A DNA stretch of 64,000 nucleotides, taken from assembly GCA_034521495.1 (NCBI GenBank), contig JAXHMK010000018.1, positions 62,001 to 126,000 on the forward strand. The letters are read 5' to 3'. The notes under the pieces were generated by a model. That model searched no databases and had not been told where the DNA came from. It saw nothing but the letters and a program-made list of their open reading frames with translations. A program made the translations under genes and the position numbers. Each line of letters starts with the position of its first letter. Position 1 is the first letter of the stretch. Positions 10,636-22,581 of this stretch are shown one piece after another. This DNA comes from Balneolaceae bacterium. GTDB taxonomy: Bacteria > Bacteroidota > Rhodothermia > Balneolales > Balneolaceae.

Positions 10636-12129
10636 ATGGATAAAATAAAGATTAGTATTGCTGCGATGTTTGCAGTGATTTTTATATTTGTAGGAATGCA
10701 TTACGCAACCGATAATGGGTCGAATAATGCATCCATGTTTCGGTTACCCGACTTTAATACTACGGAAACTACTGCTGACCAGACTCCGATTACCACTCTG
10801 AAGGACTTCAACGATGCAATTGTTAACATTGCAGAGAGAACGAATAAAACGGTAGTAACAATTACCACTACACAAACCGTTACAAGGCGTCAACAATCTC
10901 CCTTTTCTTTCTTTTTTGATGATCCTCGATTTAACCAGGAAAGAGAATATAGCCGTCAGGGATTGGGCTCAGGCGTTATTGTTTCTGAGGATGGATATAT
11001 CCTCACAAACAATCACGTAGTTGAAAACGCAGAAGAGATCAATGTTCGGTTTTTTGACGGCGATGAGATGAATGCTGAAGTTGTGGGAACAGATCCCGCC
11101 AGTGATGTGGCCGTTTTAAAAGTTGATGTGGATGAAAGCCTTCCCGCGATCGCCTTGGGGAATAGTGATGAAATCCGCGTAGGAGAGATGGTTTTGGCTA
11201 TAGGTAGCCCGCTGAATCCCAATTTTGCTCATTCGGTTTCTATGGGAATTGTAAGTGCAAGCGGCCGCTCTTCGCTGGGTTTAAATATGTATGAAAATTA
11301 CATACAAACTGACGCTGCTATTAATCCCGGTAACTCAGGCGGAGCACTCGTGAATCTTGATGGTGAGCTTGTTGGAATTAATACCGCAATTGCCAGCCGA
11401 AGCGGCGGCAACCAGGGAGTAGGATTTGCTATTCCGGTGAACATGGCCCGCGATGTAATGGAGGCATTAATTACGGAAGGCCGTGTAGCAAGAGGTTATC
11501 TTGGAATCGGTGGTAGTACGGTTGACAGAACCATGGCACGTGCTCTTGGCCTTAACAGAGCAAGAGGGGTCATCATTGGAGAAGTACTGCCAGACACACC
11601 TGCAGCAGAAGCAGGATTGCAAGATGGTGATGTAATTGTATCTTTGGACGGTGAAGAAATTGAAGCCTACAGAGATTTTCAGGTTGCCATCGGAAGTAAA
11701 AAACCCGGCGATGAGATTTCCCTTGAAGTCATCCGCGATGGTGAACAGATGGAGTTCAATATAGAACTGGCCGAGCGCGATATGGAAGAGATGGCAGGCA
11801 ACACAAGAGTAGATGATGATCGCATGAACGATCTGAAAGAAGCACTCGGATTTTCTGTTGAAGATTTAACAAACTCTATTCGACAGCAGCTTCAATTAAA
11901 CGAGAATGTTGATGGAGTTGTGGTAACGAATATTTCCCAGGGAAGTCCTGCAGCCCGGCAAGGATTGCAACGCGGCGATGTAATTACCCAGGTAGGAGAG
12001 CAAGCCGTAACAAATCCAAATGAGTTTTATGGTGCTATTCAAAATTATATTGATGATGAAACTGATGCCGTTCTGCTGCGTGTAAACAGGCAAGGTAGAA
12101 ATGTTTTCATAGCTATCGAATTGATGTAA
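10636..12129 (+). CDS. DegP/HtrA-type periplasmic serine protease with two PDZ domains
   Basis: A quality-control protease and chaperone of the cell envelope. The 497-aa product has an N-terminal membrane or signal segment (residues 3-21), a trypsin-like domain with the triad His127 (TNNHVV), Asp157 (SDVAVL) and Ser234 (GNSGGAL), and two PDZ domains. The first PDZ is at about residues 285-375 (ARGYLGIG and GVIIGEVLPDTPAAEAGL) and the second at about 400-495 (GVVVTNISQGSPAARQGL). The Q-linker between the first segment and the protease (MFRLPDF to SPFSFFFDD) is typical of DegP/DegQ. It stands between hsp20 and dnaJ, forming a protein-quality block, and ends with its own terminator. The AT-rich spacer before it has no sigma-54 match. 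Confidence 0.95.
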   Translation: MDKIKISIAAMFAVIFIFVGMHYATDNGSNNASMFRLPDFNTTETTADQTPITTLKDFNDAIVNIAERTNKTVVTITTTQTVTRRQQSPFSFFFDDPRFNQEREYSRQGLGSGVIVSEDGYILTNNHVVENAEEINVRFFDGDEMNAEVVGTDPASDVAVLKVDVDESLPAIALGNSDEIRVGEMVLAIGSPLNPNFAHSVSMGIVSASGRSSLGLNMYENYIQTDAAINPGNSGGALVNLDGELVGINTAIASRSGGNQGVGFAIPVNMARDVMEALITEGRVARGYLGIGGSTVDRTMARALGLNRARGVIIGEVLPDTPAAEAGLQDGDVIVSLDGEEIEAYRDFQVAIGSKKPGDEISLEVIRDGEQMEFNIELAERDMEEMAGNTRVDDDRMNDLKEALGFSVEDLTNSIRQQLQLNENVDGVVVTNISQGSPAARQGLQRGDVITQVGEQAVTNPNEFYGAIQNYIDDETDAVLLRVNRQGRNVFIAIELM

Positions 12130-12160
12130 GCAAACCATATGTGGTTATGGTTAGGGTTGA

Positions 12161-12193
12161 AGCCTCTGTCTTTGCTGGCAGGGGCTTTTTTTT
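12161..12193 (+). terminator. Terminator after htrA
   Basis: An 8-bp stem (AGCCTCTG at 12161-12168 with CAGGGGCT at 12179-12186, one G-T pair) runs into eight Ts at 12186-12193, a textbook intrinsic terminator. Confidence 0.88.
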
Positions 12194-12271
12194 ATGTCTT
12201 GGAGAGACGCTGACTTGTATTTTGTCAAATTCAGGTAATTGGCACTGTCAAAATCGCAAACCTGTGGGTGG

Positions 12272-12287
12272 TGGCATATCTTTTGCT
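12272..12287 (+). promoter_or_regulatory. Sigma-54 (RpoN) -24/-12 promoter of the DnaJ gene
   Basis: TGGCATATCTTTTGCT matches the consensus TGGCAYRNNNNTTGCW at every position. The GG is at 12273-12274, the GC at 12285-12286, and exactly 10 bases lie between. It sits 79 bp after the htrA terminator and predicts a start near 12298, giving a very short leader that still contains the ribosome site GAGG (12300-12303) before the ATG at 12311. Two TGTCAAA heptamers lie just upstream (about 12223 and 12246). Confidence 0.82.
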
Positions 12288-12310
12288 ATAACATTACATG
12301 AGGTAATATT

Positions 12311-13288
12311 ATGGACTATAAAGATTATTATAACATTTTAGGTGTGTCCAGGGATGCGTCCCAGGACGAAATTAGGAAGAAATACAGGAAACTGGCAGCT
12401 AAATACCATCCGGATAAAAATCCTGATGATGATAGCGCCGAGGAGAAATTCAAAGAGATCGGTGAAGCCTACGAAGTTCTGAAAGACCCGAAGAAGCGAA
12501 AATTGTATGATAAAGTCGGGTCTGATTGGAAAAAATATGAACAGGCCGGTGCCAGTGCTGATGATTTTAACTGGAACCAATATGCAAACCAAGGTGGCGG
12601 CCAGCGAATTAATATGGAGGATATTTTCGGTGGCGGAGGCCGAGCGGGAGGTGGCGAGAGTCCATTTTCCAGCTTTTTTGAAACGATTTTTGGCGGGGGC
12701 GGCGGTGATCCGTTTGCCGGACGCCAATCCCAGGCACGTCAATATCAAAGCAGAACGGGCCGGAATGTGCGCCAAAAAGGGCATGACACAAAGGCCGAGG
12801 TAGATGTAAACCTAAAGGATGTACTCACCGGTACAGAGAAACAGTTTCGAATAAACGGGGAGAGAGTTAAACTTAAAATTCCCGCCGGTATAGAAGATGG
12901 AAAACGACTTAAACTGAAAGGGAAAGGACAAACTTCGCAAATGGGAGGTCCAAAGGGGGATCTCTACCTGAAAGTGAACGTCAGAGAGCCGGAAGGTTAT
13001 GAAAGGAGAGGCAACGATATCTATCAGAAAGTGCCGCTGGATCTCTATACAGCTGTTTTAGGTGGGAAGCTGACAGCCCAGACACTCGAGGGAAAAATCA
13101 AGTTGGATATTCCGCCGGAAACTCAAAATGGCAAAACATTTCGTTTGGCCGGGAGAGGTCTTCCGCAGTTCAAGAGAAAGGGAAAGAGAGGAGATTATTT
13201 CCTGAGAACAGAAATTCAAATTCCTGAAAATCTCACCTCAAAAGAGAAAGAGCTTTTTAAAAAACTGGCTGAAGAGCGGAAGAATTGA
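12311..13288 (+). CDS. CbpA-like DnaJ co-chaperone (no zinc finger)
   Basis: This 325-aa J-domain protein stimulates the DnaK ATPase and delivers substrates. Residues 1-70 form the J domain with the invariant HPD at 33-35. A Gly/Phe/Gln-rich linker with several GGGG runs follows (about 95-150). Two C-terminal beta-barrel domains begin at about 155 ([14 protein letters not shown]) and 245. The CxxCxGxG zinc repeats of true DnaJ are absent, so this is the CbpA/DnaJ-B class rather than the dnaJ of a dnaK operon. The start at 12311 is supported by GAGG 7-8 nt upstream. It has a perfect sigma-54 promoter. Confidence 0.95.
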
Positions 13289-13417
13289 TCAGTTCATAAT
13301 TGAAAGATGTTGAAGTTTCAACTCGTAAAAGTAGTGGATTATTTTTTCAAACCAATCAAAGATTTTTACTTTCTGCTATCAACAAAGCTCTTATCTTAAA
13401 AAGAAAAACAGACAGTT

Positions 13418-14191
13418 ATGCATCTATTAATTTCACTTCTACTTCTCACCGGCTTTTATTCCGATTCACATGAAACTGAAAGATGGGGGCAGATCGGGCA
13501 TTATGTTTCGGGCGAAATTGCTGAAAAACATATGAATGATCTCGTAAAAGCCCGGGTACAAAAGATTCTTGGTGATCGGTCCATCGCCATTTCAACGGTT
13601 TGGATGGATGATATCCGTTCGGACGATAGCTACGATTTTGATACATGGCACTATGTAACCATCCCGGATGGTGAGAAGTACGATCCTGAAATCCAGGAGG
13701 AAAGTGGCGATATTATATGGGCGCTGGAGACGTTGATTGAGGAGCTAAAAGAGGGAGATCTGACGGAAGACGAGGAAAGGGAAAAGCTGAAGCTGGTGAT
13801 GCATATGATCGGCGATATTCATCAGCCGCTGCACGTTGGAAACGGCGAGGACCGGGGCGGAAATGATGTTCGCCTCCAATGGTTTGGTGATGATTCCAAT
13901 ATACACCGGGTGTGGGATAGTGGAATTATTGAGTCCTTTCAAATGAGTTATACGGAGCTTGCCGATGAGTTAAATACTGCAACATATGAACAAGTTGAAA
14001 ACTGGCAGAATGATTCGGTGAGAGACTGGGCGTACGAGTCGATGGATTACCGCGATGAGGTGTATGACCTGCCAGACAATATGCGGCTTAGTTACGAATA
14101 TAGATACTATAAAAAAGGTATTATCTACAAGAGATTACTCCAGGCAGGTGTACGAATGGCCGGCGTTTTAAATGAGATTTATGCAGAGTAA
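13418..14191 (+). CDS. Exported S1/P1-family nuclease
   Basis: A zinc-dependent extracytoplasmic nuclease that cuts single-stranded DNA or RNA, probably for phosphate and nucleotide scavenging. The 257-aa product has a short signal peptide (LLISLLLLTGFYS). All nine zinc ligands of the P1 fold can be placed: Trp23 (the expected mature N-terminus), His28, Asp64, His78, His129, Asp133, His139, His163 and Asp167. Spacings match the family, for example H-x3-D in HMIGDIHQPLH and in IHRVWD. It follows the DnaJ gene by 130 bp on the same strand without a clear terminator between them, so co-transcription is possible but not shown. Confidence 0.92.
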   Translation: MHLLISLLLLTGFYSDSHETERWGQIGHYVSGEIAEKHMNDLVKARVQKILGDRSIAISTVWMDDIRSDDSYDFDTWHYVTIPDGEKYDPEIQEESGDIIWALETLIEELKEGDLTEDEEREKLKLVMHMIGDIHQPLHVGNGEDRGGNDVRLQWFGDDSNIHRVWDSGIIESFQMSYTELADELNTATYEQVENWQNDSVRDWAYESMDYRDEVYDLPDNMRLSYEYRYYKKGIIYKRLLQAGVRMAGVLNEIYAE

Positions 14192-14237
14192 TCTTTCGCC
14201 TGACGATTATAGTTTTTAGATCTAAACTCGCAGATAT

Positions 14238-14317
14238 CTCCCCTTGAGGGGAGTACCCGACAGGTATGTCGGGGGAGGGGTGTCCAATGCTATTCGCGTA
14301 TTTACACCCCCCTCCTA
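14238..14317. repeat. GC-rich double hairpin repeat, family R6 copy 1
   Basis: CTCCCC-TTGA-GGGGAG at 14238-14253 is followed by CCCGAC with GTCGGG (14256-14273) and an outer pair GGAGGGGTGT with ACACCCCCCTCC. Related hairpins lie at 42097-42133, 48322-48463 and 63230-63334. It opens a 719-bp gene-free stretch (14192-14910) that is almost wholly repeat-derived. Confidence 0.65.
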
Positions 14318-14424
14318 AATTTTGAAAACATAAAATTTAGCTTAAACACTCATCCGATGAATAGCCTCTATAAAATCTCTCGATTGCCCTTTCGGCTGTT
14401 GAATTTTGAGTATTCAAAACGTTT

Positions 14425-14507
14425 ACTCGGCAGGCGAAGAAGACAATCGCCAACCGGGTGGCTTGATCTCTCGTCCGTCGATAGTCTTTTTCTTCGGACG
14501 AATCAGA
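14425..14507. repeat. Inverted-repeat element, family R8 copy 1
   Basis: Two arms resembling each other in inverse orientation surround a core close to GAAGAAGACAATCGCC and its complement. The same pair of arms, in the other order, lies after clpB at about 25239-25345, and a partial arm at about 34853-34890. Directly after it comes a GCGCGAGCGTCTCGC arm (14512-14532) of the R7 hairpin family. Confidence 0.5.
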
Positions 14508-14520
14508 GATAGCGCGAGCG

Positions 14521-14724
14521 TCTCGCTCGTGCTTCATTTACAGTGTATCTACTCGAATTCATCGAATAAATATTTCGATAAAAAATTTCAGAATTCGCTA
14601 ATCCACTTATCAGGAGTGATTGATACTACGATATCTTCTCCAACACATCTGCGTGAACATTAAATGCATTTTGTCCCCAGAGTATAAACCGAACGGTTTT
14701 AACATGTTCAAGATCTGCGGATAG
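14521..14724. repeat. Left copy of a 204-bp direct repeat flanking the PIN toxin-antitoxin pair
   Basis: Aligns without gaps to 15851-16054 at a constant offset of 1330 bp. By hand count about 188 of 204 bases agree, with differences concentrated in the last 25 bases. It includes the 3' end of a macrodomain gene plus about 100 bp of its downstream flank, so the 1.3-kb unit between the repeats looks like a segmental duplication or an insertion that copied the target. Confidence 0.85.
14626..14724 (-). pseudogene. 3' remnant of a macrodomain gene
   Basis: The last 33 codons of this frame read LSADLEHVKTVRFILWGQ and end VHADVLEKIS, nearly the same as the C-terminus of the intact macrodomain protein encoded at 15956-16489 (LSIDLEHIKTVRFVLWGQ, ending VHADMLEKIS). 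Upstream of 14724 the sequence no longer matches, so only the end of the gene survives and no start is present. It is a broken copy, separated from the intact gene by the toxin-antitoxin pair. Confidence 0.82.
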
Positions 14725-14910
14725 GTTTTGGTTCCGAAAGCCCCGTCCGGAATGCATGCCGGAACCTCCGGTTTTGCTGTTTAATACTGGCTTCCCTGTA
14801 TAAAGAGTTCTCGGAATTAATCCCAAAGATTCAGTTGTTTTCCAAATCGGGAATCTGAATACCAAAAGATTTTGTTATATTGATCAGTGTAAAAACAAAA
14901 TGTACGAACT

Positions 14911-15132
14911 ATGTCAACCACCCAATTAGAAAAAGAACTTATTAAAAACACCAAAGGTCTTCCCGAAGATGCCCAACAAGAGATCGTAGATTTTGCCAAG
15001 TTCATCAGACAAAAAACATTAAAGAAAACACAGAATTCTGTTTCCATTGAATTGTCAAAGTTAAGCAAGTCTCAGGCTACTCACCTCGAAGAAGAGTTTA
15101 CAGACTACAAAAAACTCTTTCCGAATGTATAG
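14911..15132 (+). CDS. Antitoxin of a PIN toxin-antitoxin pair (DUF2281/VapB-like)
   Basis: The 73-aa product resembles short antitoxins of the DUF2281 type. An N-terminal region, TTQLEKELIKNTKGLPEDAQQ, is followed by VDFAKFIRQKT and a polar tail that would wrap the toxin (EEEFTDYKKLFPNV). No helix-turn-helix is obvious, so autoregulation cannot be read directly. The gene overlaps the downstream PIN gene by 8 bp, the usual translational coupling of type II modules. The whole module lies between two copies of a 204-bp repeat, suggesting recent arrival. Antitoxin identity rests mainly on position and size. Confidence 0.75.
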   Translation: MSTTQLEKELIKNTKGLPEDAQQEIVDFAKFIRQKTLKKTQNSVSIELSKLSKSQATHLEEEFTDYKKLFPNV

Positions 15133-15517
15133 CTATGTTGCCGATACCATGGCTTTAATTCTTTGGCTTGAGAAAAGAAAAATGCCTCCTAAAGTTAAAA
15201 AACGATTTTTGGAAGCCGCAAAGAAGGAAGCTGAAATCATTATTCCTTCCATGGTATTTGCGGAATTGGGTTACCTTTCAGAAAAAGGAAGAATTGATAC
15301 AAATTTAATTGAATCACAAAATCTGATCCAAAATAACGCTTCATTTAAAGAACATACTCTCTCCTTTTCTACGATTCAAGAAGCATTTAAAATTGAAGAC
15401 ATTTCGGAATTACATGATCGTTTGATTTCCGCTGCCGGAAAAGAATTAAATCTTCCAATTCTTACAAATGATCCCGAGATACATCGTTCGAAATATGTGG
15501 TAGCAATTTGGGATTGA
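15125..15517 (+). CDS. PIN-domain toxin (VapC-like ribonuclease)
   Basis: A predicted Mg-dependent RNase that would block growth when freed from its antitoxin. The 130-aa protein is a single PIN domain with the acidic set in place: Asp7 (VADTMALILWL), Glu47 (SMVFAEL), Asp98 (LHDRLI) and Asp116 (LTNDPEIH). It overlaps the antitoxin gene by 8 bp. All catalytic positions are intact, in contrast to the second PIN gene at 18399. Targets in this family are usually tRNA or rRNA, which cannot be told from sequence. Confidence 0.88.
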   Translation: MYSYVADTMALILWLEKRKMPPKVKKRFLEAAKKEAEIIIPSMVFAELGYLSEKGRIDTNLIESQNLIQNNASFKEHTLSFSTIQEAFKIEDISELHDRLISAAGKELNLPILTNDPEIHRSKYVVAIWD

Positions 15518-15631
15518 TTTAAGTTAATAGAAAAGATTCTTAGGGATTAATTAATCTTTAATATCATTGAGAAGTTACCCCGAAATTTGCATTGTTTAAT
15601 CTGAGATAAAGCGAGCAGTATCCCGATCCAT

Positions 15632-15839
15632 CCTATCATGTGGACACAAGTTTATCTATATCTATAAGACGTCTACCGGAATGAATCATCCATAGTTTTC
15701 AGGGGATCCCTCCACTGCAATCCGAAGAAAGCGCTGCGAACGCACGGATGGATCTCACTGATACAGGCTATCATGCCTGCACGACTCCATAAGAATCTTG
15801 GTTTATACTTGAATAATGTAGATGTGTCCACAAGATAGG
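15632..15839. mobile_element. 208-bp MITE-like or relic element with 17-bp terminal inverted repeats
   Basis: CCTATCATGTGGACACA at 15632-15648 and TGTGTCCACAAGATAGG at 15823-15839 are inverted copies with one mismatch. The interior has no intact gene. It occupies most of the 438-bp gap 15518-15955. The same gap also carries an isolated 18-nt end of repeat R1 at 15569-15586 (GAGAAGTTACCCCGAAAT) and then the right copy of the 204-bp direct repeat. I cannot assign an insertion-sequence family or see a clear target duplication. Confidence 0.55.
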
Positions 15840-15850
15840 GTTCGTCGGGG

Positions 15851-16054
15851 TCTCGCTCGTGCTTCATTTACAGGGTATTCACTCGAATTCATCGAATAAG
15901 TACTTCGATAAAAAATTTCAGAATTCGCTAATCCACTTATCAAGAGTGATTGATACTACGATATCTTCTCCAACATATCTGCGTGAACATCAAATGCATT
16001 TTGTCCCCAGAGTACAAACCGAACGGTTTTAATATGCTCTAAATCTATAGATAG
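15851..16054. repeat. Right copy of the 204-bp direct repeat (contains the end of the macrodomain gene)
   Basis: Partner of 14521-14724 in the same orientation. Its right part is the coding 3' end of the intact macrodomain gene and its left part the downstream flank. Because the gene is whole here, this is presumably the original and 14521-14724 the derived copy. Confidence 0.85.
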
Positions 16055-16489
16055 CTCTTTGACAGCCGTTAATGCAATTTTAGCAGCCTGTTCCATAGGA
16101 TAGCCGAATGCACCGGTTGAAATAGCCGGGAAAGCTATGGATTCTAATTCATTCTCATCAGCTATTTTCAGTGCGTTTACATAACAATTTCTGAGAAGCT
16201 GGTCTGCCGGTTTATCCCGTCCATACACCGGGCCAAGACAATGAATAATATGACTGTTTGGAAAGTTTGGGGCTGATGTAATAACAGCCTCACCGGGAGT
16301 GATGGGGGCAAGACTCCTGGTTTCTTCGGTAAGCTCCGGATCACCGATTCTGTGAATGGCTCCAGCCACTCCGCCTCCGATTTGCAGTTGGGCATTCGCC
16401 GCATTTACAATGGCATCACAATCGGGTTGGTCTACAATATTTCCACCGTCTAATTCTATGATAACGTTGTTGAATTTTTTTTGGATCAT
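15956..16489 (-). CDS. Macrodomain protein (ADP-ribose hydrolase, MacroD/YmdB type)
   Basis: The 177-aa product is a single macrodomain that should bind ADP-ribose and remove it from proteins, or deacetylate O-acetyl-ADP-ribose. Diagnostic blocks are CDAIVNAANAQLQIGGGVAGAIH (residues about 24-46), GEAVITSAPNFPN, IIHCLGPVYG and FPAISTGAFGYP (about 120-131), which line the ligand cleft. The Asn-Gly-rich loop of MacroD enzymes is present. No ADP-ribosyltransferase gene such as darT is adjacent, so a toxin partnership is not supported. Its 3' end is duplicated upstream beyond the PIN module. The start MIQKKFNNVIIELDGG fits the family. Confidence 0.92.
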   Translation of the reverse strand: MIQKKFNNVIIELDGGNIVDQPDCDAIVNAANAQLQIGGGVAGAIHRIGDPELTEETRSLAPITPGEAVITSAPNFPNSHIIHCLGPVYGRDKPADQLLRNCYVNALKIADENELESIAFPAISTGAFGYPMEQAAKIALTAVKELSIDLEHIKTVRFVLWGQNAFDVHADMLEKIS

Positions 16490-16958
16490 GGGATTGTTAA
16501 CTAAAAATTATGAAGTTGACTCTCAACTTTTCCTTAATTTGGACCTGTTACTCTCAAAACTCGCACAAAAAGCATTCACAGAGCCTGTCAGAGTAACAAG
16601 AAGCCCATATTCGAAGCGCTTTCCATCTCTAAATTTACCAAAAAGTATATGTTTTTTTGGCAGAATTATGATTGTAATGTCCGAAAGCGCTTTCTATAAA
16701 AATAGACATTGTAAGGGCTTTTTTCGAATGCTATTGAGGTTTTTTAATTCGCCAAAAAAGAACTGTGTTAAGACATTGTTAAGACAAAATAATGAAAAGG
16801 GCTTCCAATGATAAAAGATGCAATTATGACACTATCTTAGAAAATAGATTGGAAAAAATAGTAGTCAAACTCTTGAATTAAGTGCTTTTAGCCCCCTACC
16901 TTTTAATCGAGTTGATAAAACATCAATCTCAAATAAATCGCAATTAATAAATATCAAA
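16490..16958. promoter_or_regulatory. 469-bp spacer with two LacI-type palindromes
   Basis: No gene is seen. Two half-conserved palindromes centred on CG occur 69 bp apart: AAGCGCTT at 16614-16621 inside CGAAGCGCTTTCC, and the perfect 12-mer GAAAGCGCTTTC at 16683-16694. This AA-N-CG-N-TT layout is that of LacI/GalR-family operators; a further AAGCGCTT lies at about 34564. Placement upstream of the paired exported proteins suggests, but does not prove, control of them. Confidence 0.4.
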
Positions 16959-17432
16959 ATGAAAGCATTAAAAATTGTAACCGCAGTTAGTTTCTTATTT
17001 ATTGCCAGCATTGCTGTTGCCAGTGAAGTACTTGCTGATAACACAGTGGCAAAAGACTCAACAGCTGTTACAAGTGTTGAAAATGAGAAAGCACTCTTTA
17101 ACAAACTGGAAACAGGATTGATTTACAGTCTGAATTCCAACGTTAACGGAGTTGTTGAATCATCTCTTTATAATGCAGTTAATTTTAAAATTACTTACCC
17201 GGAATTTAATTCCGAAAAAGTAAAAGAGATCCTGGCCAGAATGGCAAAAGAGGGAAACAGTCATACACTGAGATATAAAGCGTATCTCACATTGGCTTAT
17301 TACCAACACCCAGATCAATTTGGTTCTCCTAAAGCTCTGTTATCTTTGCTGAATAACAAGCATGATAGCGGAATCTTTTTCCATCTACAGACAATAGTAG
17401 AGGCTAATCAGTTCACATCGAAAATCAACTAA
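16959..17432 (+). CDS. Small exported protein, tandem paralogue 1
   Basis: A 157-aa protein with a clear signal peptide (KIVTAVSFLFIASIAVASE) and a helical mature domain. I do not recognise the family. The mature part carries the motif KALFNKLETGLIYSLNS, then GVVESSLYNAVNFK, then LRYKAYLTLAYYQHPDQF, and ends FTSKIN. It is about two-thirds identical to the next gene, and the leader sequence before the ATG (AATAAATCGCAATTAA) is also shared, so the pair arose by tandem duplication of a unit of about 551 bp. The short helical LRYKAYLTLAYY segment could be HEAT-like, but that is a guess. Confidence 0.8.
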   Translation: MKALKIVTAVSFLFIASIAVASEVLADNTVAKDSTAVTSVENEKALFNKLETGLIYSLNSNVNGVVESSLYNAVNFKITYPEFNSEKVKEILARMAKEGNSHTLRYKAYLTLAYYQHPDQFGSPKALLSLLNNKHDSGIFFHLQTIVEANQFTSKIN

Positions 17433-17509
17433 TCCCACTTAATGGTATCCTGATTCACTTTGTAGAATCAACATCAAACTCAAATAAATCGCAATTAACA
17501 AATATCAAA

Positions 17510-17983
17510 ATGAAAACATTAAGAATTGTAACCGCGGTTAGTTTCTTATTCATCGCCAGTATTGCTGTTGCCAGCGAAGTACCTGCTGATAACACAGTGG
17601 TAAAAGATTCAACAGCAGTTGAAAAGGTTGAAAATGAGAAAGCACTCTTTAACAAACTGGAAAAAGGATTGATTAACAATCTGAACTCCAGAATTACAGG
17701 AGTTGTAGAATCATCCATGTATAACGCAATCAACTACAAAGTTGAGTACCCTGAATTTTCTTCAGATAGAGTAGAACAGATCCTTAACAGGATTGCCGTT
17801 GAGGGAGAAAGCCACTCACTGAGATATAAAGCATATCTCACACTGGCTTATTACAAGAATCAAGATCAATTTGATTCTCCTGAAAACCTGCTGTCACTGC
17901 TTGATTACAAGCACCAGGATGGAATTTTCTTCTATCTGCAGGAGATCGTACAGACAGATCAATTCACATCGAAAATCAATTAA
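17510..17983 (+). CDS. Small exported protein, tandem paralogue 2
   Basis: The second member of the duplicated pair is also exactly 157 aa, with nearly the same signal peptide (RIVTAVSFLFIASIAVASE) and the same ending FTSKIN. Conserved blocks are VENEKALFNKLEKGLI, GVVESSMYNAINYK and SLRYKAYLTLAYYKNQDQF. Most substitutions are in the mature surface region. The spacer of 77 bp holds the repeated leader but no terminator, so both are probably on one transcript that ends at the strong hairpin at 18084-18130. Function unknown; secretion to the periplasm or surface is the only supported inference. Confidence 0.8.
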   Translation: MKTLRIVTAVSFLFIASIAVASEVPADNTVVKDSTAVEKVENEKALFNKLEKGLINNLNSRITGVVESSMYNAINYKVEYPEFSSDRVEQILNRIAVEGESHSLRYKAYLTLAYYKNQDQFDSPENLLSLLDYKHQDGIFFYLQEIVQTDQFTSKIN

Positions 17984-18083
17984 TCCAATTTATCGGCAAC
18001 CTGACTCAGTTTGTAGAACCAGGCAATGCCGATAGCTAATCAATGGAGCAGTTTTAATAAAGACTGTAAACCACCATACACCC

Positions 18084-18130
18084 ATCCGGTTGATTCCTTC
18101 TTTGAAGAATGCGAATCAACCGGATTTTAT
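18084..18130 (+). terminator. Terminator after the exported-protein pair
   Basis: A perfect 13-bp stem (ATCCGGTTGATTC at 18084-18096 with GAATCAACCGGAT at 18113-18125) is followed by a T-rich run. It lies 27 bp before the start of the next toxin-antitoxin module and separates it from upstream transcription. Confidence 0.85.
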
Positions 18131-18156
18131 TTTTTATCATAAAAAAGGAGGTTCTT

Positions 18157-18402
18157 ATGCGAACAGAAAAAAAAGTTTCGAATGGAACCCTGAGTTTACC
18201 TCAAGAAATTTTATCCTATTTGAAGTTGAAGGATGGAGAGACCGCAAGTTTAGAAGTCAATGAAGACGGCTCGGTAACCATCCGCAAGAAAGAAACAATC
18301 GCCGATTTGAAAGGAATTATTAAAAAAGGCGAAACCCCCGATCTGCACGCAAACGGGGATTATGAATTTGAGACGTCATCAAAACAACGGGAGAAATTAT
18401 GA
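18157..18402 (+). CDS. AbrB/MazE-like (SpoVT fold) antitoxin
   Basis: An 81-aa swapped-hairpin DNA-binding antitoxin. The frame is open from 18109, but the ATG at 18157 has a perfect AGGAGG five bases upstream and gives the usual start MRTEKKVSNGTLSLPQEILSYL. The N-terminal half has the pattern of SpoVT/AbrB domains (SLPQEILSYLKLKDGETASLEV, then GSVTIRKK). The tail (DLHANGDYEFETSSK) would bind the toxin. It overlaps the next gene by 4 bp. In such systems the antitoxin usually represses its own operon. Confidence 0.85.
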   Translation: MRTEKKVSNGTLSLPQEILSYLKLKDGETASLEVNEDGSVTIRKKETIADLKGIIKKGETPDLHANGDYEFETSSKQREKL

Positions 18403-18797
18403 AAGTTTTGACTACAGAAATTTTACTGGCATATCTTGTAGAAGATCATGAACAAAGCCACCATGCCGACCTGTTTTTTGACTCGGCATCTGAGGCGGAA
18501 ACCTATTTTTTGAACAATATTGTATTGAACGAGGTAGCAACTTTTTTCGAAGAGAATGTGAAATTTGATAAATGTGATATTTTAAAGGCGCTTCGGGCGC
18601 TGGAATCAAATTCACAAATTCGGTTCGAGAATCGCGAAATTGTTTCGGAGGCGATTGAGATGTACTCTATCAGCCGGGAATCTTTTTCGGAATGCCTGAA
18701 GTCGGTAATTAACGTCGGCTTTCAGATGAAAAATTTAAAGGCTCTCACTAAAGAGAAGAACGGATTTTTACCCGTCCGAAAACTGCCAGTTATTTAA
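18399..18797 (+). CDS. Degenerate PIN-domain protein (probable inactive toxin)
   Basis: Position, size (132 aa) and overall pattern identify a VapC-type PIN protein: MKVLTTEILLAYLVEDHE aligns with the usual start M-x3-DTNILLRYLVxD, and NNIVLNEVATFFEE matches the second motif. The first catalytic Asp (position 5) is Thr and the usual Asn at position 7 is Glu. The third motif reads SFSECLK instead of an Asp-containing form, and the last TFD-like motif is ALTKEKNGF without an obvious Asp. Only the motif-2 Glu is clear. The reading frame is intact, so it could be kept as a non-catalytic binder or co-repressor. Compare the fully equipped PIN toxin at 15125. Confidence 0.75.
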   Translation: MKVLTTEILLAYLVEDHEQSHHADLFFDSASEAETYFLNNIVLNEVATFFEENVKFDKCDILKALRALESNSQIRFENREIVSEAIEMYSISRESFSECLKSVINVGFQMKNLKALTKEKNGFLPVRKLPVI

Positions 18798-18961
18798 TGA
18801 GGGGTTCATCAAAGTGGCAGTATCCATTGGTATAAGTTTTGGTTACTGAGTTTTTAAGCCGGTAATCTACAATTTCTGCAGTTCATTAAGATCAAAAAGG
18901 GACATGTATTCCAAGTTGTTGGATTCATTTTTAAAAATTATCAAGATAGCATTCTGTTTTC

Positions 18962-19305
18962 TTTTGAGGACTTACCCCATTTTTATGATGTAAATTTGTT
19001 GCACATGCTTTGTTCTTTTGTCTTGATACAAAAGAACGAAAAAATCAAAGGCTGTGAATACTTGGCGGCGGACACGAGTTCACCGTGGAATCCTTTCAAT
19101 GGTCCATAACGCTTTCAACCCTTAAATTTCGCTTCTCACCGGTATGAAAGGATTCTTCTCACGGTTCTCTCGTTGTCCTTTTTCCCGCCAACTATTCAAG
19201 GCCGGTTATTTTCCCAAAATCACCATTTCCACTTGTTAAAGATCTTAAACTACTGTTATTTATTACTTTAAATTACTTAAATTTAAAATTTCGGGGTAAC
19301 TTCTC
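18962..19305. repeat. 344-bp dispersed repeat, family R1 copy 1
   Basis: About 90 percent identical by eye to 37975-38317 in the same orientation. It begins TTTTGAGGACTTA and ends ATTTCGGGGTAACTTCTC. Near the left is a perfect 10-bp hairpin, GTTCTTTTGT with ACAAAAGAAC (19012-19037). It fills most of the 475-bp gap after the degenerate PIN gene and runs 33 bp into the following minus-strand gene, supplying its last ten codons and stop. It contains no conserved reading frame between copies. There are no terminal inverted repeats. Confidence 0.85.
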
Positions 19306-20112
19306 GTTTTCTTTTAGCTTGACATAGGTAAAATATGAGAATATAAAAATAGTAATGCTATATAAGAGGGGCGCCTGCAAATGATGAGCAATTGAACTCT
19401 CTGCTGATGATTGAAAATCTCTAAAGTAGTAAATAATAAAACGCCCTACAGTGAAACTGATTACAAAAACTGAGGTTTTAAGTCCTGCTAATTTTATTCT
19501 TTCAAAGACAATCCATGCAATAGTTATTGAAAGAATGATAACCAGTATTTCGTATATCTGGGTGGGATGAACGGCCTGAACAGATGCAAAATAACTTAGT
19601 GGGTTTTCAGTAATTTGAGCTCTGTGCACGAAACTATCACGGGGGAAAACAACGCCCCACGGCATATCGGTTTCCTTTCCATAGCAACAGCCATTCAGAA
19701 AGCATCCTGTTCTTAAGAAAATTAAAGTAACGGCTACATGGGGAATTAGTTTATCTGAGGTTTTCAGAAAAGGGAGTTGTTGCCATTTAGAAATGCCCCA
19801 TAAGGTGAACAACGATAGATATAACCCTCCAAACAGGCTAAAATTTGAAAGTGCAAATTTGTAGATAATAGATGGATCGAGTAGCGTTCTCTCCAGGAAA
19901 AATGCAGCATAAAGAATTCGTGATCCAATGATAAATGAAACACCGATGATACCAGAGATGAACCAACGATGATAACGGCTTATGTCATTTTGTTTAAGAA
20001 TTCCCAAGAGTTTATATAAGAAATAAAGTCCTCCTGCTACTCCAAAAAATTTATAGGAGCTTACTGAATACGGTACACCACTGATAGAAAATTCAAATAG
20101 TGTTTCATACAT
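19273..20112 (-). CDS. Lgt-like membrane protein (prolipoprotein diacylglyceryl transferase family)
   Basis: A 279-aa protein with about seven membrane segments. It matches the Lgt family around FLRTGCFLNGCCYGKET, the Gly-rich loop that in true Lgt reads G-R-x-G-N-F-x-N-x-E, and at HPTQIYEILV. The catalytic-site Asn and Glu of canonical Lgt are replaced by Cys/Gly, as in a paralogous subfamily, so transfer of diacylglycerol to lipoprotein cysteines should not be assumed. It is followed on the same strand by nothing and preceded by a lipoprotein gene 57 bp upstream, making a two-gene unit. The final residues EKLPRNFKFK are encoded by repeat R1, so the original C-terminus was replaced or trimmed. 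Confidence 0.82.
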   Translation of the reverse strand: MYETLFEFSISGVPYSVSSYKFFGVAGGLYFLYKLLGILKQNDISRYHRWFISGIIGVSFIIGSRILYAAFFLERTLLDPSIIYKFALSNFSLFGGLYLSLFTLWGISKWQQLPFLKTSDKLIPHVAVTLIFLRTGCFLNGCCYGKETDMPWGVVFPRDSFVHRAQITENPLSYFASVQAVHPTQIYEILVIILSITIAWIVFERIKLAGLKTSVFVISFTVGRFIIYYFRDFQSSAESSIAHHLQAPLLYSITIFIFSYFTYVKLKENEKLPRNFKFK

Positions 20113-20169
20113 AGAGTGAATATGATTGGAAGATATTTATTAACAACCCTTAGGATTTTTATAGTTCAT

Positions 20170-21990
20170 TCATTTCCAAAACTCAGGAGGTAATCGTTCT
20201 GATGACCAACTTCCTGTCATCATTTCAGGTTTGGATGTAGTGCCCATTAACCAGTAACCTGATAATGTATATTTGTCTTCTCCTTTTATTTCAAACTCTC
20301 CAACGTAGGTGATACCAACTCCCTGTTCTTTACCTGTTAAAGTTAGGCTGTTGTCTGTAAATACACCATGCAAGTAAATAACCTCTTCATCTTCATCCTC
20401 AGCAGTATAAATATTATAGGCTGTTTTCATACTCGAATTATCAGAGAATCCGGAGGTAAGCTCATCTTCTACATCGTATATAATCATCGTTGCTTCATAT
20501 TCCTGGCTATTCTCAATAATTTCCAATTGAAGTACAAATGGTTGCTCAACACCTATAAATTGGTCAAAGTCAATTTCTTCAAAATCATCTATTTCACACC
20601 CCTCTGCAAGATCTTCATCTTCTTCGATATCCTCGGAGTCAAAGTTGATTTCTTCAATGACCAGGGTACCATCCCACCTGCCGGTAAGATCTTTGCTTAG
20701 CTCATCATCTCCGTCGTCGTCACCATTTTCATCAGGTTCACTAAAAACTGACAATTCATTCATTGCACCAGCAATTATATCGGTGACCTGTTTCTCAAAA
20801 TTCCCCCAAATATCCACGGATTTAAATTCCCAGTTACCTTCCGGAACCACCATCTCAAATTCTGTAGTATTGCTTACATAGTCGGTTAGCCCAATTAACA
20901 CCTGAGTAATATTATCAAAATTTGAATCGGTAGCTTCAGCTACCACAATATCGCATTCACTTCCGGTTTTACTTTTATCCACTATTTTAACTCCACCCCA
21001 TTTTGGATTGCGATTCAGCCAGTTTTCAGGATTTCGAGCTCCTTTTGATGTATTGTAAAGATTCTTTAGAGACTCACTTAAATCTTTGGCCATTTCACTG
21101 TTATCAATAATTTCATCTATGGGTACATATCCACTCAGGTAATCTTTTATTGCATTCTCTACTTGCTCGAGTTTTCCATCTCCATCCAGAGGAGCATCAA
21201 CTGCTTTCTCCGCATTATCTATGTAATTATTTGCGTTTTCCACCATTCCCATACCTTCACCCAGTGGCGTTGCCTCTTTTACTGCTTCAATGAGTACAGT
21301 GGCTCCTTTATTTATTCCTTCAGCTCCCTCTTTTACAAAAATCTTGTGTATATCAAGATCTTTTTCCTGAGCCATTTCAATAAATTCTAAATTATTGTTG
21401 AAATCAGCGAAGATACTATTCGCTTTTGTATCGAGTTCTCCTTTCTCTAATTTTTTCCAAAAATCATCTTCATTTTCAGACTCTTGTTTGGTTTCTTCTC
21501 TCAACCAGTCATTATAAAGTTGTGACCTTTCCTCTTTTGTTAAATTTGAAGCAACCGTTAAAACTCTTGTCCGGGCTCTTTTGGAAGAGCCGGAAATCCA
21601 TCCAAAAAAATCTACCATGGCCCCTTTTAAGTCTTTTTTTGGAGTATAATATTCGAAAATATTTCCTGCATCATTTAATTCATCACGATGTTCAGCAGCA
21701 AAAGCAGAAAAGGAATCTAAGGTTTCTGCAACTTTCATTAACTGCTCTTCCGTCATCTCTTCTTCCAAAAATTTACTCTTATAGTCATTCGAAAAAGCTT
21801 TGATGATAGTAAACATGCCATCCTGTTTTACTGCATGTGCTTCAACTAAAAACAGATAGGCATCTCTCACATCAGTTTTGTCTACATCCGGTGATAGCGG
21901 CGAATCTCCATTTTCACAGCTACTCAGAATCAACATTACTATTCCCACAAAGAAAAGTGGTACGGATATAATTTTCAGGTAAGATTTCAT
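20170..21990 (-). CDS. Large lipoprotein of unknown function
   Basis: The 606-aa product has a lipoprotein signal peptide with lipobox ILSSC (Cys about residue 25). The acylated mature end (CENGDSPLSPDVDKTD) is polar, typical of an outer-membrane lipoprotein. The first 330 residues are helical and charged. The central part holds the calcium-loop-like acidic stretch EPDENGDDDGDDEL. The C-terminal third is beta-rich (TGRWDGTLVIEEINF, LTSGFSDNS, YVGEFEIKGEDKYTLSGYW) and resembles lipocalin-like domains that report ligand or stress. I do not recognise the whole. It appears co-transcribed with the Lgt-like gene downstream. Confidence 0.8.
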   Translation of the reverse strand: MKSYLKIISVPLFFVGIVMLILSSCENGDSPLSPDVDKTDVRDAYLFLVEAHAVKQDGMFTIIKAFSNDYKSKFLEEEMTEEQLMKVAETLDSFSAFAAEHRDELNDAGNIFEYYTPKKDLKGAMVDFFGWISGSSKRARTRVLTVASNLTKEERSQLYNDWLREETKQESENEDDFWKKLEKGELDTKANSIFADFNNNLEFIEMAQEKDLDIHKIFVKEGAEGINKGATVLIEAVKEATPLGEGMGMVENANNYIDNAEKAVDAPLDGDGKLEQVENAIKDYLSGYVPIDEIIDNSEMAKDLSESLKNLYNTSKGARNPENWLNRNPKWGGVKIVDKSKTGSECDIVVAEATDSNFDNITQVLIGLTDYVSNTTEFEMVVPEGNWEFKSVDIWGNFEKQVTDIIAGAMNELSVFSEPDENGDDDGDDELSKDLTGRWDGTLVIEEINFDSEDIEEDEDLAEGCEIDDFEEIDFDQFIGVEQPFVLQLEIIENSQEYEATMIIYDVEDELTSGFSDNSSMKTAYNIYTAEDEDEEVIYLHGVFTDNSLTLTGKEQGVGITYVGEFEIKGEDKYTLSGYWLMGTTSKPEMMTGSWSSERLPPEFWK

Positions 21991-22149
21991 AGCCCCGCCT
22001 CAATGTTAATTAACTGTAGAATACTCTTTTATCTACTTTTTAAATTAATCAATTCCGCATTTTGGTACGCTTTAATTGAATAGTACTTTCTCTATAAATG
22101 ATGTAATCATTTCACCTACGATCTTATTTATCAAGTTTTTTCAATCTTA

Positions 22150-22276
22150 GAAGGCTTTGTAAAACTCTGACCGTCATCCTGAACTTGATTCAGGATCTCC
22201 AAATACTGACTATAAAGACGAATGGAGAATCTGAATCGAGTTCAGATTGACCAATAACCACGGTTTTGCAAAGTCC
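22150..22276. repeat. Palindromic MITE-like element, family R4 copy 1
   Basis: The ends are inverted copies (GAAGGCTTTGTAAAAC against GTTTTGCAAAGTCCTC). Inside, GTCATCCTGAACTTGATTC and GAATCGAGTTCAGATTGAC form a second long palindrome. Short TCTTA copies flank it. The same family at 50402-50676 has been split by another insertion. It lies in a 591-bp gap (21991-22581) that otherwise shows no gene; the last 150 bp must carry the clpB promoter, which I could not define. Confidence 0.7.
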
Positions 22277-22581
22277 TCTCTTAATTACGCGGGATCAACA
22301 GATCAGGACTCTACAATTTATACGTTGGATGGAGTGAGAGCACCTGCAATATGGATGAGGATATATTTAATTACTGGAATTAAAGCTGTTACTCAGGAAC
22401 CTATCTAAGCTGACAATCTCCCGTTTAGATTTAACATTATGTCAGATATCTGCCAACTCCGTTTAATTACCTGTTGATAGGGTGTTTTGTTCGTCAGGAT
22501 TCTGCAATTCCGACAGTTCTTTATTTGGAGGTACGGTTTTAGCAACAACTCTAAATAAAAAGGCACAAATATTAGCAAGTT

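Follow-up and report, generated by a model that had tools for sequence, protein, structure and literature searches.

A VapBC-like toxin–antitoxin pair lies between two direct repeats made from the end and 3' flank of a macrodomain gene, at a junction that in relatives holds neither the pair nor a second macrodomain end. The insert is specific to this lineage, and a small element, termed B, interrupts the right repeat copy alone. We regard capture of the pair with a repair-made duplication of 210–235 bp, followed by later changes involving element B and a MITE of family D, as having about an even chance of being the correct history. Coordinates are positions in the window, the whole 64,000-nt stretch of DNA that was analysed, unless another contig is named, and the features of the locus are collected in Table 1.

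Table 1. Features of the toxin–antitoxin locus and its flanks, by position in the window
Feature	Position	Strand	Evidence or remark
S1/P1 nuclease gene on the left, one side of the ancestral convergent junction	13418–14191	+	PF02265, E 1.3e-57
Left repeat copy: REP A, flank 3' of the macrodomain gene and its final 33 codons	14501–14731	+	14501–14519 rests on a 16/19 match
REP A palindrome (tagcGCGAGCGTCTCGCTCGTGC)	14508–14534	+	Left copy begins within REP A
Orphan macrodomain end in left copy, last 33 codons	14629–14727	-	Repeat alignment
REP-like palindrome E, left end of insert	14731–14773	+	Resembles dispersed copies in G030
VapB-like antitoxin, DUF2281, 73 aa	14911–15132	+	PF10047, 30.8 bits (cut-off 26.5)
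VapC-like PIN toxin, 130 aa	15125–15517	+	PF01850, 31.9 bits (cut-off 23.6)
MITE family D end: left terminal inverted repeat, truncated (GAGAAGTTACCCCGAAATTT)	15567–15593	+	Right end of insert
Degenerate REP A left arm, probable left part of right copy	15599–15617	+	Cut off by element B
Small TIR element B, ~232 bp, TIR about CCTATCNTGTGGACACA, exact ends uncertain	15618–15849	.	Inside right copy
Right repeat copy: half of the REP, flank 3' of the macrodomain gene and its final 33 codons	15850–16062	+	Repeat alignment
Macrodomain gene, complete, 177 aa	15956–16489	-	PF01661, E 2.9e-38

The two copies form an ungapped direct repeat, with 92.2% identity over 205 bp (14520–14724 against 15850–16054) and 91% over 210 nt (14520–14729 against 15850–16059), and local alignment stretches the match to 14520–14731 and 15850–16062. 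A repeat of this quality is far beyond chance, and across 1.26 Mb of this genome few spaced direct repeats are as long and as alike. Simple duplication during assembly was ruled out because 8% of sites differ between the copies. The right copy comprises the 3' flank and end of the intact macrodomain gene, the left copy only 33 codons and the flank. The original prediction had described a repeat of 204 bp and about 92% identity around the toxin pair, with only the last 33 macrodomain codons in the left copy, and both points held, the complete gene lying on the right. Its account of the repeat anatomy was correct as far as it went, and missed the REP palindrome at the edge, element B, the truncated MITE end and the uneven divergence of the copies. 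An Rfam search of the repeat gave no structured-RNA match near the gathering score. Separately, a weak, sub-threshold match to Whalefall-1 RNA at 14234–14280, where a dispersed palindromic repeat adjoins the nuclease gene, is probably due to chance.

The edges of the duplication are marked by a palindrome, REP A. Copies with at most one mismatch number 34 in this genome and 16 in G015, with few or none elsewhere; they occur as inverted pairs and adjoin a Y1_Tnp gene at C9:95744. With its dispersed copies, their clustering at a Y1 transposase gene and their inverted pairs, REP A resembles the REPs associated with RAYT (Y1 transposase) genes. On that contig (G000:C9:95251–99597; L103, L108) the Y1 gene sits amid REP A copies and adjoins a 1.7-kb tandem duplication (88% identity) that is itself edged by REP A. 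In the right copy at the locus only half of the palindrome remains after 15850, and the apparent start of the copy at that position is the right edge of element B. This element resembles several others elsewhere in the genome, the left copy has none of the kind, and it was inserted in the REP of the right copy after the duplication. Ahead of it, 15599–15617 matches 14501–14519 at 16 of 19 bases, a score that none of 1000 shuffles equalled, although REP sequence alone could supply part of it. Judging from this match, the original repeat probably extended some 19 bp further to the left, to about 230 bp, starting just left of the REP palindrome, and was later split by element B.

The insert is bounded by different elements. 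Palindrome E, at the left, has dispersed relatives in a genome of the same family (G030) and lacks a strong second copy here. The right end of the insert is the first 27 bp of MITE family D, whose full members measure about 340 bp and are like other MITEs in having inverted ends and in duplicating about 8–9 bp of target. Among the genomes searched, family D is expanded only in this one. The right junction lies inside a truncated member of a family expanded here alone, so it arose or was remodelled in this lineage, and its position suggests at least one further rearrangement rather than one clean event. Elsewhere in the genome, family D (L034–L060) has about 30 or more copies, running from GAGAAGTTACCCCGAAATTT to AAAAATGGGGTAAGTCCTC, with common ends around several internal types, and the few loci checked hold no transposase-sized gene inside. 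One copy, with a target duplication of about AAAAGAAAAC (from L054), occupies 18944–19302, its left end being estimated, and the region around it (18824–22434) is without match in L101 and L102. REPs and MITEs thus stand at the edges of the duplication and the insert, with no evidence at the locus that they moved the toxin pair.

Between the repeats the toxin–antitoxin genes are the only recognisable ones, and no mobility gene was found there. The antitoxin gene lies directly upstream of the toxin gene on the same strand, overlapping it by 8 nt, and the pairing is also kept in L065. Both genes score above their Pfam cut-offs, in agreement with the PIN toxin–antitoxin pair originally predicted between the repeats. 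Against the curated VapB model NF050009 (NCBIfam), the antitoxin reached 25.9 bits, below the cut-off of 60; with the DUF2281 cut-off exceeded and this one not, the pair is named VapBC-like rather than strict VapB. Four acidic residues of the toxin, Asp7, Glu47, Asp98 and Asp116 (D7, E47, D98, D116), do not vary among three homologues; we assign them to the conserved acidic set of the PIN catalytic site, and their presence is what would be expected of a predicted active PIN nuclease. The locus resembles VapBC type II modules with a DUF2281 (COG5559) antitoxin in having the antitoxin first and the PIN toxin second, but its sequence is distant (best homologue 56%) and its toxicity is predicted from the genes. 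DUF2281–PIN pairing has been catalogued as a toxin–antitoxin arrangement in Synechocystis sp. PCC 6803 (PMC4963859). A resident toxin–antitoxin-like pair, AbrB/MazE-like with a weak PIN match, occupies 18109–18797, 2.6 kb from the captured pair, and is conserved in L101 and L102 at 55–73%.

The toxin was found in none of the 58 relatives searched and has matches in three of about 394 other genomes of the phylum, at 28–43% identity. The best homologue (56%) is on a GTDB contig of uncultured Bacteroidetes, with similarity limited to the two genes, and searches of phages and plasmids gave no match to the toxin. The pair is also AT-rich, with 34–36% GC against 42% in the window. Horizontal acquisition of the pair fits its rarity across the phylum, the lone 56% homologue, its AT-richness and its absence in relatives.

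It had been proposed that related genomes might reveal the empty site, and at the genus level they do. A macrodomain gene was matched in 36 of the 58 relatives, in single copy barring genes split across contigs. In about 20 relatives, nearly all of the same genus, the macrodomain gene converges on the neighbouring nuclease gene, with roughly 10–380 bp between the two stops, and at the junction of these there is neither a toxin pair nor a second macrodomain end; the empty site is seen in other species, at roughly 72–81% DNA identity. In L101 and L102 the sequence runs collinear with the window through this junction, without the insert. After removal of one unit, the gap here measures 435 bp, close to the 381 bp of L003, and the intergenic stretch beside the nuclease gene is common to the window and L003, so that the left copy occupies the ancestral position of the macrodomain end. 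Taken together, the comparison supports an insertion and a duplication that are both specific to this lineage. Two further candidates were set aside. Transfer of the macrodomain gene, considered since protein identity to L003 is 86% for the nuclease and 69% for the macrodomain, was rejected because DNA identity is about 78–81% on both sides. A foreign origin of the macrodomain tail, prompted by DNA similarity to L101 and L102 that begins at the repeat edge (16050–16056), was dropped as unproven; the tail varies from relative to relative throughout, and its residual and GC were no clear outliers.

Divergence between the copies is uneven. Within 14520–14700 they differ at 9 of 181 sites (5%), and at the gene-side edge, codons 145–153, at 9 of 27 (33%); the contrast gives a Fisher p of 6e-5, an optimistic value given that the boundary was picked after seeing the data. 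The likely left edge is also more diverged (3 of 19 sites). An alike interior with drifted edges suits gene conversion, which rarely extends into the final tens of bases of a repeat, and hints that conversion between the copies may keep the interior alike. Neither copy is consistently closer to relatives, both being equally far, and the comparison favours neither as the older one or the source, nor either direction of copying.

These features would be accommodated by the following course of events. A fragment of about 0.87 kb carrying the intact VapBC-like pair would have been captured, in this lineage, between the convergent nuclease and macrodomain genes, presumably in a single capture event. 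The break or replication switch would have spanned about 210–235 bp, from the REP palindrome to macrodomain codon 145, and repair would have copied this span on both sides of the insert, which amounts to a target duplication of unusual length. The right copy would thereby have kept the macrodomain gene whole, and the left copy would have been left as a 33-codon orphan end. Element B would later have landed in the REP of the right copy, and the MITE D near the toxin gene would have been reduced to one end. The most likely route of capture would be a staggered break or a template switch. Segmental duplication or capture had been suggested originally; duplication of the gene end does accompany the toxin–antitoxin insertion, and the mechanism of capture is what we infer from the anatomy.

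The same geometry as under this capture model would result from integration of a circle or from decay of a tandem macrodomain gene. Under the former, a plasmid or excised circle carrying the pair and a macrodomain end would have entered by a single homologous crossover, duplicating the shared piece. Both copies do carry changes, as two diverged alleles might, but the circle must already have held exactly this gene end, the toxin has no plasmid or phage match, and two donor alleles would differ uniformly rather than at 9/181 and 9/27 sites, all of which make this route unlikely. The latter supposes that the macrodomain gene was tandemly duplicated and that the left copy lost its first 144 codons on entry of the toxin pair, its end being the remnant of a paralogue. 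Tandem duplications next door (16919–18021) and elsewhere in the genome lend it some footing; yet no relative has two copies, an extra deletion is required and no remains of the gene body are left, and we consider it a rather doubtful but live contender.

Some genomic islands and prophages use the 3' end of a protein gene as their integration site, as E. coli e14 does with icd, and a whole gene on one side with its 3' end alone on the other, as found here, is the classic picture. An integrase-driven island remnant, with the macrodomain 3' end as attachment site and a spare gene end brought in, is nevertheless improbable. No recombinase lies between the repeats, the five tyrosine integrase genes (PF00589) of the genome are all on other contigs, and no island is found here in relatives with both genes in view. 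In addition, the cargo is only about 0.9 kb and there is no clear sign of a tail supplied from outside; the tail varies in every relative, its GC drop is typical, and neither its composition nor its divergence clearly marks it as foreign. The chance flanking of the pair by two ancient, unrelated macrodomain paralogue ends, the outcome that would have overturned the original prediction, could draw on the fact that both copies are changed relative to each other and to relatives. It is extremely improbable against a non-coding 3' flank about 95% identical, a REP palindrome shared at the same place and the finding of a second copy in no relative. Transposon insertion was rejected since a repeat of 205–235 bp is too long for a target duplication and no transposase lies between the copies; a search of 12000–18500 for inverted repeats of at least 20 nt found none. 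An island beside a tRNA was rejected, there being no tRNA in the window.

Local duplication is common in this genome, as seen from a nearby, lineage-specific tandem duplication and from other partial-gene duplications. The former, 0.9 kb to the right at 16919–18021, is a 552-bp unit with a gene for a probable secreted protein of 157 aa; its two gene copies are 80–85% identical in DNA, and L101 and L102 have one. The 5' part of an arsD-like gene is duplicated at 82% (G000:C4:178695–179090 and 181138–181563), with about 2 kb of other genes between. A recurrent unit of the toxin-pair kind was rejected after 1.26 Mb was scanned, as the other partial-gene duplications (C4:371241/373363 and C4:178695/181138) hold unrelated cargo. 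There is little likelihood, in our estimation, of a general process in which the genus repeatedly captures small cargo, toxin pairs among it, without a transposase at breaks near REPs, leaving duplications of hundreds of bases, with conversion keeping the copies alike and the toxin pair guarding the locus against the repeat-mediated deletion.

All parts of the locus belong to known kinds. One such kind is a tandem or segmental duplication whose junction holds captured DNA, and the capture favoured here resembles it in the direct duplication of hundreds of bases, an unrelated insert and no transposase, with the mechanism in the present case read from the anatomy. The locus is a single one and introduces no new kind of system; it is a clear but ordinary gene capture with local duplication. 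Recombination between the repeats would plausibly remove 1,330 bp and leave one intact macrodomain end in place. The locus offers a snapshot of how a toxin–antitoxin pair can reach a chromosome when no mobility genes are visible, between repeats that would permit its exact deletion, and it could serve to measure whether a toxin pair prevents the loss of repeat-flanked DNA.
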